Positions 1-5,732 of a stretch of DNA of 64,000 bases are shown here, piece after piece. The translations under genes were made by a program, and so were the position numbers. Position 1 is the stretch's first letter, and the number at the start of each line of letters is the position of its first letter. The stretch lies in the NCBI RefSeq assembly GCF_001553405.1, contig NZ_KQ960955.1, positions 1 to 64,000 on the forward strand, read 5' to 3'. The stretch is from Megasphaera hutchinsoni. Lineage in GTDB: Bacteria; Bacillota; Negativicutes; Veillonellales; Megasphaeraceae. The notes below the pieces were generated by a model. That model saw nothing but the letters and a program-made list of their open reading frames with translations, was not told the origin of the DNA and made no database searches.

Positions 1-3000
1 GACATATGTTTTTTCTGCTTTATTTGCTACTTCGGCTTTTGTTGCTTTCCCTTCAATTTCCGTAACTAATTCATCACTTAATTTGCCTTTAGAAATTGCC
101 TTGTCCTTGATGTCCAATGTCAAATCAGCACCAACAACCTTACCATCACCGGTAACCGTTAATGTCTTAGATGTGACACTTCCTTTCTTTACCTTACCGG
201 TCACAAAAGTTTCTGTAACAGTACTGTCAATTTGTTCTTTCGCCAAGTTTTTAACAACCGTTTTTCCGTTTTGTGTCAAGTTATCTAAATCGGTATTGGC
301 TTTATTATTCAAATTTTTCGTAACTTCCGTCTTATACGCAGCAAGCTCTTTATTTACTTTATCTGCTGCACCTTTTGCTTGTTCTGCCGTTAACTTTGCC
401 GTATTTGCAGTAGAATTTGCCGTATTTGCCGTAGAGTTTGCTTGAGTTGCAGTTGAATTTGCCGCAGTCGCCGTATTTTGTGCCGTTGTGATTTCTGTTT
501 TCAGTTCGTTTTTCGCCGTATTTATTTGTCCTACTGTGGCGGCACTGGTGACGGTCGTACTTTCTTTGACATTCGTGATTTCCTGACCGCCCATATTGAG
601 TCCGTCTTTGGTCAAAGCGACAGCCGTTTTACCCGAACCGATGGTCAAGCCGTCCTGATTAAGCGTACTCGTCCGTTTGTCTTTGGTAAACGTAGCACTT
701 TCTAACTTATTCAAATTATGATTCAAATTAATTTTGGCTTCAATGGTATCAAAACCATCATTCGTAGACCTTCCAAGATCTACATTAATATTACTATCGT
801 TATCTCCACCTCGTATTTTTAGAGAAATTTTTCCTTTTTGACTGGCTTTTGTTCCTGCCGACACCCACGGTTGTCCGCCGGTATTTCCTTCGATATTAAA
901 ACCGATATTGCCTTCTACCTTAGTGTTTACATCATTTACCTTGTTATCTACACCACTTATCTTATTATCTACACCATTTATCTTATTATTAACTTGCTTC
1001 AACTGTGCCACATTGACGGCATCCGTATCTTCGCTACCGCCTGCTACATTCGTGATTTGACGAGTAATCGAATCACTGCCGATTGATAAGGCTCCGGAAG
1101 TAGATTTATTGGCACGTAGTCCGCCGATTCCTTTACCTGCATCACCGTCATTAGCATATACAGTATTCTTACCGAAATCATATGCACGCTGTCCGCCGGC
1201 TCTTGTACCTCTTGACAAAGCTCCCAAAGCTATACCGCCTTGCGCCCCTTTCTCTACGTGACTGTCTTTACCGATAGCGATGGAATTATCCGCCAAACTT
1301 TGCGCTTTATAACCGACAGCAATGGCATCCTTCCCCTTCGCGCCGTCATTCAAATAGTTGGTCCCTTTAAGAAAGCCCTGTTCATCATTTGTCAACGCTT
1401 TCGTTAAGCTGTCTTTCAGTTTTTCCTTCTTCCACTCATTAAGTTTGTTGATAACATCATTCGTATCACTTGTATCCAACCCCGGATACTTTGCTTTCAA
1501 TTCGTTGAGAATAGTGTCGACATTCTTTCCTTTTAATCCGGAAGCATCAATCCCCGTCTTATTATCGCCTTTTTCCAAATTAGTTATTACATTCTGAATC
1601 CGATTCTTGAATGTTTCATCAACTTTTTCCTTATTTTTTTCCCTAACCTGTAATTCTATCTGTTTAATGCGGTAATTGACATACTTCCGATAATTCATCT
1701 CTTTCTTCTGCAGCGGTATAACTTTGGTTACATCCCCACTCTTTTTATCCACCGCCAAGTAGCTGAAAGGATTAAGATCTGAGTCCTCAGGCAAATTACT
1801 GGAGAAACGTTCTTCCAAACTGCGAAGCTGCGATACATTGACGGCATCCGTATCACGATACCCGCTGGCTACATTAGAAATACGACGTTCACTACCGATT
1901 TTTCCGACAGAAACAACACCCACCTGTGTGGATGACGGGAAGGTAATAGCATTGCGCGGTGCCCAACCGTCCTGTTCCAAATCGTCTTTCGTGTAATCCG
2001 TCTTACTGCCTACACCGATAGCAACAGAATTCGTCAAATTGGCAAAGGATCTCACACCTATCGCCATAGAATTGTCTGCTATGGCAGCAGCTTCCATACC
2101 GATAGCAGCAGAATTTTCTCCTTTAGTATATGTAAAATGACCGACGTTCAATGAGTTATTACCGGCACCCAGTGAAAGTGAACCCAAGACCAAAGAATTA
2201 TTGCCGATCGCATACGTACGTCTTCCGATAGCAATCGCATTATCACTCCACTGTTTAGGTCCCACTTGAGCCTGTTTTTTTCTATATTCAGTTCTAAAAG
2301 GACCGTTGTTTCCATCTTTCCACTGACGTAGCACGCTACCTTCATCATCAACCCATTGTTTGTTCTTTTTATCATAGCCGGCCATAATTTTTTCCAGATA
2401 GGTAATTCTATCTTGCGTAGTATCGAATCTCGTACCAGTAGGTTTAATTTTCCCTTCTCCGTTATATAGAAGAACATTCGCCATGGTATTTTGAGCTTCA
2501 CTGTTTAACATCGCATTGGCACCGACATTATGACCGATAGCAATAGAATTGGCACCGAGAGCTTTCGCATCATATCCATACGCCAGCGAGCCGTCTCCAC
2601 TGGAATAAGTCTTATTCCCGACAGCCAAACCGTCTTTACTCATAACACGACTTTCTTCACCAAGTGCCATACCGCCTTTAGCGCCGGAACTAACCAAAGA
2701 ACGAACGCCTAATGCGGTCGATCTGTCTGCCAATGCCATAGCCAACACGCCGATAGAAGTAGAATCGTCTCCTAAAGCGACTGTTCTGGAACCGATAGCG
2801 ATAGATGCCTCCCCTGCGGCATAATTCGGCGACCATACACGTCTATCATTACCGGCATCATCTATCATATATTTATTTTTAAACCAAGTAGGATTATCGT
2901 TTATCATGTCTTTATAAATTTTTTTTATGGTTTCTTCCGGTAATTTATCCGAAAACTTACTTCCGGTGAAAGCTTTCGGATCTGCATCATCACTACCGAT

Positions 3001-3657
3001 GGAAATGGAGGCATAGCCCTGTGCACGTACATCCGCACCAAGTGCTACAGCTTGGTCATTTGCCCAACTATGAGCCCCGACAACAGTTCCCTGTCCTTTC
3101 AAAACTTTCGCATAAGAACCGATTGCTGTACCTTCATTACCATTTGTCGTTGCAGCATGTCCGACTGCCAATGAACCTTCACCTACTGCATTAGTACCAT
3201 AACCATATGCCGTTGCCCCGAATCCAAATACACGAAATCGATTTCCTATGGCTGTTCTATGCTTCAACTCTTCAGGCAAACCATCTTCCTTGCCCGCAAC
3301 TGTTTCACCGCTGATCAGCCCCATCAGAAAACTAAGTCTAGCTTTGCCAGATCTCACTCCGATAGAACCGTAATCCTCATCTGTAACCGGATGATTTGGA
3401 TCCCATTCAGCCTTATTATGTTTATCTTTATCCCACTTAAGATCTCCTGCATGATAAGTACCTATGGTATCTGCCCGAACCGGCATTGTCGGCAAAACGG
3501 TGCTTACGCCGCACAAGGCCATGACCGCCAAGACGGCCGCTTTGCGGGCAAGGAGTCCCGTCGGGGACACACTTTTCCCGTCTCGCTTGGTAATTTCCGA
3601 AACCACTACGTAGCAATGTTTTACTTTACTCCAAATAACTTTGTAAATTTTGTTCAT
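1..3657 (-). CDS. Trimeric autotransporter adhesin (YadA/Hia-like), 3'-truncated by window edge
   Basis: The frame is open from the ATG at 3657 to base 1 (1219 codons, no stop), so the C-terminal part and membrane anchor lie outside the window. A GGAGGG ribosome site precedes the ATG. The N-terminus MNKIYKVIWSKVKHCYVVVS is a classic ESPR extended signal peptide, followed by a hydrophobic stretch and a likely cleavage after about residue 62. Residues about 120-580 are YadA-head type repeats (AIGxxSxAxGxxA style, e.g. GANSIAIGHNVG). Two neck motifs of the form NVAxGxxDTDAVNVxQL lie near residues 595 and 870. The C-terminal half has heptad coiled-coil stalk (VDNKISG VDNKVND) and Ala/Thr/Asn-rich repeats. 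Family role: homotrimeric surface adhesin secreted by a type V mechanism. Binding target cannot be told. Confidence 0.95.
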   Translation of the reverse strand, partial: MNKIYKVIWSKVKHCYVVVSEITKRDGKSVSPTGLLARKAAVLAVMALCGVSTVLPTMPVRADTIGTYHAGDLKWDKDKHNKAEWDPNHPVTDEDYGSIGVRSGKARLSFLMGLISGETVAGKEDGLPEELKHRTAIGNRFRVFGFGATAYGYGTNAVGEGSLAVGHAATTNGNEGTAIGSYAKVLKGQGTVVGAHSWANDQAVALGADVRAQGYASISIGSDDADPKAFTGSKFSDKLPEETIKKIYKDMINDNPTWFKNKYMIDDAGNDRRVWSPNYAAGEASIAIGSRTVALGDDSTSIGVLAMALADRSTALGVRSLVSSGAKGGMALGEESRVMSKDGLAVGNKTYSSGDGSLAYGYDAKALGANSIAIGHNVGANAMLNSEAQNTMANVLLYNGEGKIKPTGTRFDTTQDRITYLEKIMAGYDKKNKQWVDDEGSVLRQWKDGNNGPFRTEYRKKQAQVGPKQWSDNAIAIGRRTYAIGNNSLVLGSLSLGAGNNSLNVGHFTYTKGENSAAIGMEAAAIADNSMAIGVRSFANLTNSVAIGVGSKTDYTKDDLEQDGWAPRNAITFPSSTQVGVVSVGKIGSERRISNVASGYRDTDAVNVSQLRSLEERFSSNLPEDSDLNPFSYLAVDKKSGDVTKVIPLQKKEMNYRKYVNYRIKQIELQVREKNKEKVDETFKNRIQNVITNLEKGDNKTGIDASGLKGKNVDTILNELKAKYPGLDTSDTNDVINKLNEWKKEKLKDSLTKALTNDEQGFLKGTNYLNDGAKGKDAIAVGYKAQSLADNSIAIGKDSHVEKGAQGGIALGALSRGTRAGGQRAYDFGKNTVYANDGDAGKGIGGLRANKSTSGALSIGSDSITRQITNVAGGSEDTDAVNVAQLKQVNNKINGVDNKISGVDNKVNDVNTKVEGNIGFNIEGNTGGQPWVSAGTKASQKGKISLKIRGGDNDSNINVDLGRSTNDGFDTIEAKINLNHNLNKLESATFTKDKRTSTLNQDGLTIGSGKTAVALTKDGLNMGGQEITNVKESTTVTSAATVGQINTAKNELKTEITTAQNTATAANSTATQANSTANTANSTANTAKLTAEQAKGAADKVNKELAAYKTEVTKNLNNKANTDLDNLTQNGKTVVKNLAKEQIDSTVTETFVTGKVKKGSVTSKTLTVTGDGKVVGADLTLDIKDKAISKGKLSDELVTEIEGKATKAEVANKAEKTYV
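925..987 (-). repeat. 21-bp tandem repeat in adhesin stalk
   Basis: Three consecutive 21-base units (925-945, 946-966, 967-987), each coding one coiled-coil heptad of the type NKIxGVD. Units two and three differ at one base. Copy changes would keep the frame and lengthen or shorten the stalk. Confidence 0.8.
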
Positions 3658-3677: not shown

Positions 3678-3713
3678 CCCTTTTATTAAACAATACCCTT
3701 TTATTAAACAATA
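3678..3713. repeat. Perfect 18-bp tandem duplication in adhesin leader
   Basis: Two adjacent identical 18-base units (3678-3695 and 3696-3713) lie between the adhesin promoter and its ribosome site; a partial third unit follows. Slippage here would change leader length. Confidence 0.85.
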
Positions 3714-3747
3714 CTTTTATTACATTATTAACTAAGAAGTCATATAA

Positions 3748-3787
3748 ATACTATTAAATGCTATTATATAATAGCATTTAATAGTAT
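3748..3787. repeat. Perfect 40-bp palindrome over the adhesin promoter
   Basis: Two 19-base arms (3748-3766 and 3769-3787) are exact inverted copies with only TA between them, so all 40 bases are self-complementary. It covers the -10 box and most of the -35 to -10 spacer of the adhesin promoter. It has no T-run typical of a terminator. Operator or cruciform-forming site is inferred. Confidence 0.85.
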
Positions 3788-3791
3788 ACAA
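3763..3791 (-). promoter_or_regulatory. Adhesin promoter
   Basis: On the minus strand TTGTAT (3791-3786), a 17-base spacer, then TATAAT (3768-3763), the -10 box being at the centre of the palindrome. Predicted start near 3756 gives a leader of about 100 nt. Confidence 0.6.
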
Positions 3792-4058
3792 CCTTTTCAA
3801 TTATACTTTTCAAGTATATAAGTATTATTTTAAATGCTTTTATAAAAAAAATTATCTATTCTAAAGAGAATAAAAATGCAATTCCATTCCTATGTTCCAC
3901 CAAAATTATGAGCACACTCATCTGTCGATGAGTTTCTCACAAATGCTTTTATTTATTAACAAAGAGTATATTCGAATTGGTACCACGTATTATTAATTGC
4001 CTCTGCTACATGTATTGATATTTATACGTAACATCAAGGTTCACCGTAAATAAAAAAA

Positions 4059-4090
4059 GCGTGATAAGTAATACTTATCACGCTTTTTTT
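4059..4090. terminator. Bidirectional terminator after lctP
   Basis: Stem 4059-4069/4073-4083 (11 bp, 3-nt loop) with A-run before and T-run after, so it works on both strands; on the minus strand it ends lctP. Confidence 0.85.
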
Positions 4091-4124
4091 ATATTTGTTT
4101 ATCTCTAACGTACTTTCTCTTTTC

Positions 4125-5732
4125 TTAGTGAAGGAAAATGGTCATACCAAAGAAACTAATCAACCCACTAATGATAACATACAGAATAAAGTATTTTGCA
4201 ACGCTTTGCATAATAACATTTGCTTGAATGCTTTTCCGTAGTGCTTCAGCTTTATCGCCAACCAAGTTCTTTTCTTTAATGAAAATTTCTAAGGCCGGTG
4301 CAACTGCACCAATACCGATGGCAATACTTTGGGGTGAGAACATTTTTCCTGTACCAGCCGCACCAGAGCTAGCCGCAGCCAACCACGATGCCAATGCACC
4401 ATTTCCCGGATGCAATTGTGCTGCTGCAGCTGTCTGCAATGGTCCAAAGAGAACGTTACTATTCGTACCGGAACCCGTAATAAAACCGCCAATAGCACCC
4501 ACAAAGGGAGCAAAAGCAGGATAAGCCGTGCCAGTAGCACCTACTAAGGCACTTGCTAATGTAGCGGTCATACCACTGTACGTCATAAGTTTTGCTGTTA
4601 CAACAACAGCGATGATCGTAACATACGTGAATTTCAAATTAGCAAAGGTCGTACCTAAAACACTTAACATTTCACCTAATTTCGCTTTTTGATATGCGCC
4701 ACCCAAAAAGGCGGAGATGAAAATCATAATGCCCGGTGTAACAATCCATACAAACGTATAGGGTTTTGCATGTTCCCCTAAATAGATAGGTACGGTCGTC
4801 TTAATAGCACTTAACGGTCCATTGATAGCTGGTACTAATTTTGAAGTCAATATGAGAAGGATAAAAATCAAGATAAATGGCATTGCTGCCGTCACGCCTT
4901 CGCTGCCAGAAACAGGACGAACGTCAGCGTCGCAACGATATTCGGGTGCGTCCGTTTTAAAGATTTTAGCACAAATAATAATTGCACCCATAACAATTAT
5001 CGACGAAATCATCACGGCAAGTTCCGGACCTACCGCCATGGTAATAATAAGTTCGGGTACTGCCAAAGCTAAGCCTGCAATAAGTGTCGGCAAGAATACC
5101 CCTTTCAATGCTTTAACCCCACCGCATACGATAGCAACTACCAAAAATGGACTAAGCACATTGAGGATAAACAATTGCGTCGAAATAAAACTGCCCAATT
5201 CTATTGGATCAAGTCCGGTCAATGAAGCTAATGTCGTCGTAGGAATACCGATAGAACCAAAGGTTGTCGGTACGGAGTTTGCTACGAGGCATGCTAAAAT
5301 GGATTTGAGCGGATCAAAGCCTAACGCCACCATCATGGCTGCCGGAATAGCAACGGCTGTACCAAAGCCAGCCATCCCTTCCATAAAAGCACCAAAGCCC
5401 CAAGCTAAGAGCAAGGCAAGAATCCGTTTATCCGGACTCACACTCGTCAGCATGGTCTTAATGGTTTCCATCGCTTTAGTATGGACAACCAAGTTGTACG
5501 TAAAAATAGCAGCTGTAATAACCAACAAAATTGGCCATACGGCTAATGCTACCCCTTCTAACGCACCCGAAAGCATAATGACGGGAGCTTTGCTAAAAGG
5601 TCCAACAGAAATAATAAACGAAATAATTGCTGCAATACCGCAGGCTTTCCAAGCGGCCATCTTTAACACGGTCAAGCCAATGAGAAGCCATAAAATCGGC
5701 AATACTGATAAAAATACATCTAAAGCACTCAT
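4125..5732 (-). CDS. lctP: L-lactate permease (LctP family)
   Basis: A 535-residue, strongly hydrophobic protein with about 13 membrane segments and full LctP length. Recognisable family stretches include the GFGAFMEGMAGFGTAVAIP block (around residue 115) and GAIGGFITGSGTNSNVLFGP near residue 410. The family imports lactate (or glycolate) with protons across the inner membrane. The gene stands alone between a GntR-like operator/promoter and its own terminator. A FAD-linked oxidase of the GlcD/lactate dehydrogenase family at the far right of the window could use the imported substrate, but the two are not linked. The long plus-strand reading frame opposite this gene is a shadow. Confidence 0.93.
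   Translation of the reverse strand: MSALDVFLSVLPILWLLIGLTVLKMAAWKACGIAAIISFIISVGPFSKAPVIMLSGALEGVALAVWPILLVITAAIFTYNLVVHTKAMETIKTMLTSVSPDKRILALLLAWGFGAFMEGMAGFGTAVAIPAAMMVALGFDPLKSILACLVANSVPTTFGSIGIPTTTLASLTGLDPIELGSFISTQLFILNVLSPFLVVAIVCGGVKALKGVFLPTLIAGLALAVPELIITMAVGPELAVMISSIIVMGAIIICAKIFKTDAPEYRCDADVRPVSGSEGVTAAMPFILIFILLILTSKLVPAINGPLSAIKTTVPIYLGEHAKPYTFVWIVTPGIMIFISAFLGGAYQKAKLGEMLSVLGTTFANLKFTYVTIIAVVVTAKLMTYSGMTATLASALVGATGTAYPAFAPFVGAIGGFITGSGTNSNVLFGPLQTAAAAQLHPGNGALASWLAAASSGAAGTGKMFSPQSIAIGIGAVAPALEIFIKEKNLVGDKAEALRKSIQANVIMQSVAKYFILYVIISGLISFFGMTIFLH

Follow-up and report, generated by a model that had tools for sequence, protein, structure and literature searches.

The closest described parallel to the locus reported here is the control region of nadA in Neisseria meningitidis, a trimeric autotransporter adhesin gene on which several sites serve one regulator, NadR. 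Its operators extend from -15 to +7 and from -139 to -119, so that one overlaps the start region and the other lies about 120-140 bp upstream, and the control region also carries a repeat tract, placed between the operators; the sites are about 20 bp long and were shown by footprinting (PMC2791445). A tandem repeat upstream of a trimeric autotransporter open reading frame is known also from uspA2 of Moraxella catarrhalis, where the tetranucleotide AGAT is present in 12-20 copies with proven length variation (PMC7302503). For Negativicutes-type bacteria, the open-access literature that we searched holds almost nothing on adhesin control, passing mentions alone.

Here we describe a perfect palindrome upstream of a trimeric autotransporter adhesin gene of Megasphaera hutchinsoni, found in a window of 64,000 nucleotides (the whole stretch of DNA that was analysed). 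Judged from its sequence, the palindrome is most likely the landing site of a putative control protein, an element of a well known and ordinary kind. The locus shares with NadR-nadA the type of adhesin and the presence of several candidate sites for one putative regulator; the site described here, however, is 40 bp long, perfectly symmetric and known from sequence alone, and its nearby 18-bp repeat (2.6 copies, in contrast to the many short units of uspA2) lies downstream, in the leader, rather than between operators. We see the likeness to nadA as confined to layout; it extends neither to sequence nor to descent, and we claim no homology.

A perfect palindrome before an adhesin gene

The adhesin frame stays open for 1219 codons, from its ATG to the contig start, and encodes an ESPR, a YadA head and YadA stalk repeats, and a C-terminal YadA anchor would lie beyond the contig end; these domains agree with the preliminary description of the locus, which had called the gene an adhesin. 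Its upstream neighbour, which we take from general knowledge of the sequence and not from a family search to be L-lactate permease-like, has orthologues in five species of the genus, 74-75% identical. One of these (L183) stops at its own contig edge, and the downstream comparison was made on the other four (L184-L187), in which the orthologue is followed by a terminator-like hairpin and then by other genes, with no adhesin. As far as seen, the adhesin at this locus appears to be special to this species, and its promoter is therefore not comparable between species. Runs of N of about 100 bases were observed within the ESPR adhesin genes L002, L003 and L005 of the same genome, which leaves further adhesins of the assembly with gaps, and the one studied here is cut by the contig start.

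Table 1. Features of the adhesin control region and its surroundings (positions in the window)
Feature	Position	Strand	Remarks
ESPR/YadA-type trimeric autotransporter adhesin gene	1..3657	-	ATG at 3657; incomplete at contig start
18-bp tandem repeat, 2.6 copies	3678..3722	-	in the presumed leader, past the palindrome and just before the ribosome-binding site; Tandem Repeats Finder
10-bp direct repeat in palindrome arm (TAAATACTAT / TAAATGCTAT)	3745..3770	+	Tandem Repeats Finder score 38; spacing about one helical turn
Perfect palindrome	3748..3787	.	20+0+20, AT-rich, no T-run
Candidate promoter TTGTAT-17-TATAAT	3763..3791	-	TTGTAT 3791-3786, TATAAT 3768-3763; not above chance for composition
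Alternative candidate promoter TTGAAA-19-TATACT	3783..3813	-	scores slightly higher than TTGTAT-17-TATAAT
13-bp tandem repeat, 2 copies	3793..3818	.	just upstream of palindrome; Tandem Repeats Finder
Upstream half-site copy TTAAATGCTTTTATAAAA	3830..3847	+	16/18 identical to 3754-3771
Second upstream copy of half-site core AAATGCTTTTAT	3941..3952	+	half-site pattern match
Terminator hairpin after permease-like gene	4050..4092	.	strong; 21+1+21, A/T-runs on both sides, bidirectional by sequence
L-lactate permease-like gene (presumed), upstream neighbour	4125..5732	-	readable orthologues have no adhesin after them

The palindrome (ATACTATTAAATGCTATTATATAATAGCATTTAATAGTAT) consists of two arms, ATACTATTAAATGCTATTAT and ATAATAGCATTTAATAGTAT, contains 15% G+C, and has its near edge 90 bp from the adhesin ATG, with no gene in between. 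It had been placed at 3748-3791 and described as 19+2+19; the exact symmetry stands, and the two arm counts are equivalent since the central TA is self-complementary, but positions 3788-3791 lie outside the palindrome and merely complete the -35 hexamer of the candidate promoter. When the 350 bp that precede the ATG were shuffled 200 times with dinucleotides preserved, the longest arm averaged 6.7 bp with a maximum of 11, and none of the shuffles matched the observed 20; the palindrome is therefore not a product of chance. Dyad symmetry beyond chance is thus present near a promoter whose exact position is uncertain.

A long upstream inverted repeat is not in itself remarkable, because long hairpins are common before genes in this genome: among 253 genes with long upstream gaps, 21 have hairpin arms of at least 14 bp, many of them with terminator A/T-runs, and many of the long palindromes, surveyed over a 741-kb sample, are intrinsic terminators. 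The palindrome described here resembles these in being a long inverted repeat. However, it has no G+C-rich foot to its stem and no T-run on either strand, the latter as previously stated, and it precedes a gene whereas terminators follow genes; an intrinsic terminator was accordingly rejected. A mobile element, phage or plasmid origin was also rejected: a 481-bp region had no match in the plasmid and phage collections searched, nor did the 24-base core among viral contigs.

The preliminary description had further set the -10 box of TTGTAT-17-TATAAT at the dyad. Both hexamers are present as described, but their score of 10.3 was equalled or beaten in 109 of 300 shuffles of the AT-rich region, and a simple consensus promoter scan listed neither this candidate nor the alternative in Table 1. 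Random palindromes of the same composition carry an exact TATAAT at or near the dyad in 8% of cases and a five-of-six match somewhere in 72%. Given the ease with which TATAAT-like centres arise in AT-rich palindromes, together with the chance-level score, a -10 box at the dyad is therefore treated as a possibility and not as established.

Half-site copies and a candidate operator array

The half-site of the palindrome, AAATGCTWTTAT, was counted in the whole genome of 1,565,222 bp, in a test devised after the repeats had been seen: it occurs six times, and the reversed-pattern control does not occur at all. Four of the six occurrences (3756, 3768 on the minus strand, 3832 and 3941) fall within 200 bp at the adhesin promoter, two of them being the palindrome arms and the other two direct copies upstream; the remaining pair consists of a site within a proB-like coding sequence and another just past the end of an ABC-transporter ATPase gene. 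The half-site thus clusters in the adhesin promoter alone, and the full palindromic site is unique. Similarity between the nearer upstream copy and the palindrome arm ends where the half-site ends. Members of the motif family lie at 3745, 3755, 3769 and 3831, and a family of four 12-mers was not equalled in any of 60 shuffles of the region, the ten largest values of which were 2.

No second copy of the palindrome was found elsewhere in the genome, and it is absent before the four other ESPR adhesin genes of this genome and from 80 further ESPR upstream regions across the genus (n=85 regions examined; in six the profile match starts one codon past the start, which leaves the count unaffected). 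A search of 14 other genomes of the genus, with up to 3 mismatches allowed across 32 bases, gave no match, and neither did a search of two more genomes of the family with up to 2 mismatches allowed across the central 22 bases. Among the species searched, the palindrome occurs in this one only. Its lack of conservation before related adhesins in the genome or genus is one half of what the preliminary description had itself named as counting against its proposal.

Because the half-sites cluster at the palindrome and the palindrome exceeds chance, we favour, tentatively, an operator array: the palindrome may quite possibly be the main site of a small set of sites for a putative dimeric regulator of the adhesin. 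Such a regulator, dimeric or possibly tetrameric, would bind a perfect two-fold site over or adjoining the core promoter, two extra half-sites about 75 and 185 bp farther upstream would reinforce binding at the palindrome, and the bound protein would block or assist RNA polymerase in the manner of NadR at nadA. The extra upstream half-sites fit the control region of a regulator and therefore favour an operator, since neither a hairpin nor a cruciform needs them. The place of the palindrome so close before the ATG speaks for it as well, and NadR at nadA is a documented precedent of such a layout for an adhesin of this class. The dimer operator put forward in the preliminary description hence gains support from these clustered copies. 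That a protein binds the palindrome and controls the adhesin gene, with a given sign of effect, is what we infer; on/off control, the remaining part of that proposal, has the same standing. Several observations count against an operator: 40 bp is longer than one ordinary dimer needs, the promoter is not secure, short tandem duplications nearby can yield repeated motifs without binding, and, since the site is unique to the adhesin promoter, the putative regulator would have to be single-target.

Alternative explanations

The main rival to the operator array is a mutational by-product, in which template switching during replication turned a near-palindrome into a perfect one, within an AT-rich, duplication-prone stretch and without any regulatory role. 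We consider it unlikely, though by no means negligible. Three short tandem repeats, of 18, 13 and 10 bp, lie within the same 450 bp, a number found in just 3 of 300 shuffles; the palindrome arm is itself a decamer repeat; and the restriction of the palindrome to this species and locus is in keeping with such an origin. On the other hand, a 20-bp arm stays perfect only if it is recent or maintained, and template switching at the dyad alone leaves unexplained two half-sites in the same orientation 75-185 bp away. The longest of the tandem repeats, with the unit TATTGTTTAATAAAAGGG in the adhesin sense, reaches a score not attained by any of 300 shuffles, and it might differ in copy number among cells or strains.

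Were transcription to start upstream of 3787, the palindrome would form a 5' stem-loop on the adhesin mRNA, protecting the message or controlling translation. In a computed fold of the minus-strand RNA one hairpin dominates, at -27.4 kcal/mol with a z of -3.7, and a 28-bp palindrome right after TTGACA-17-TAGAAT at locus L110, treated below, would likewise form a 5' hairpin. Transcripts from both of the best local promoters, however, would begin within the palindrome and contain just part of it, and most adhesin leaders of the genus have no such hairpin; together with the upstream half-sites, superfluous to a hairpin, this makes the stem-loop rather improbable.

AT-rich perfect palindromes readily extrude as cruciforms. 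Supercoiling could in this way gate the promoter, a switch already suggested in the preliminary description, and each single strand is computed to fold to -14.9 kcal/mol; cruciform-capable repeats of bacteria have been reviewed or mapped (PMC6060812, PMC3176155). Nothing specific to this locus speaks for the switch, though, the half-sites stay unaccounted for and the promoter claim does not rise above chance, so that we hold it very improbable. Still further from likelihood is the bidirectional start, also put forward earlier, in which a promoter centred on the dyad would give adhesin mRNA one way and, the other way, a short RNA reaching the terminator after the permease-like gene. That terminator has A/T-runs on each side, TATAAT stands on the plus strand too (3767-3772), and weak plus-strand promoter candidates exist, but the best of these scores low, at 8.4, and the second TATAAT is an automatic result of symmetry. 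Specific support for this start is thus likewise lacking, and no Rfam family reaches its gathering score in this stretch, a result that counts against the short RNA and on which a known RNA element was rejected.

If the favoured operator array is real, it offers a handle on surface-adhesin control in a Negativicutes-type bacterium, with a regulatory layout like that of nadA arrived at elsewhere. If the palindrome is a by-product, it is a clean illustration that perfect symmetry spanning a predicted -10 box is no warrant for assuming a switch. A bolder version of the operator array, which we regard as a long shot, would combine a species-specific, single-target regulator acting on the 40-bp operator and two half-sites with tandem repeats that vary in copy number; the promoter would then be subject to regulation and to phase variation alike, and the nadA design would have a second, independent instance in a distant phylum.

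Palindromes elsewhere in the genome and genus

Palindromes were also found before other ESPR adhesins, of 20 bp (L003, within chance), 26 bp (L005) and 28 bp (L110). They differ in sequence, and a shared control element of ESPR adhesins was rejected. The most suggestive of them, the L110 palindrome (G009, contig C53), is perfect and AT-rich, lies about 134-162 bp before its adhesin gene, directly follows a strong promoter, and was matched in 0 of 200 shuffles; the N-terminus and signal peptide of this adhesin are the most similar to those of the adhesin studied here. Its sequence differs save for the ATGCT...AGCAT ends, and we do not count the two palindromes as homologous.

Further symmetric sites were noticed in the genome of M. 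hutchinsoni itself. On contig C29 (L143, 2373-2410 and 2432-2467), two parS-like TGTTTCACGTGAAACA cores lie in neighbouring palindromes 21 bp apart; each core is extended so that perfect symmetry covers 38 bp in one and 36 bp in the other, and the outer arms differ. On contig C31 (L159, 976-1008), a 16+1+16 AT-rich palindrome, TACTGATATAATGATAATATCATTATATCAGTA, stands 67 bp before a permease-like open reading frame; it has no T-run and resembles, by eye, a Fur-type box.
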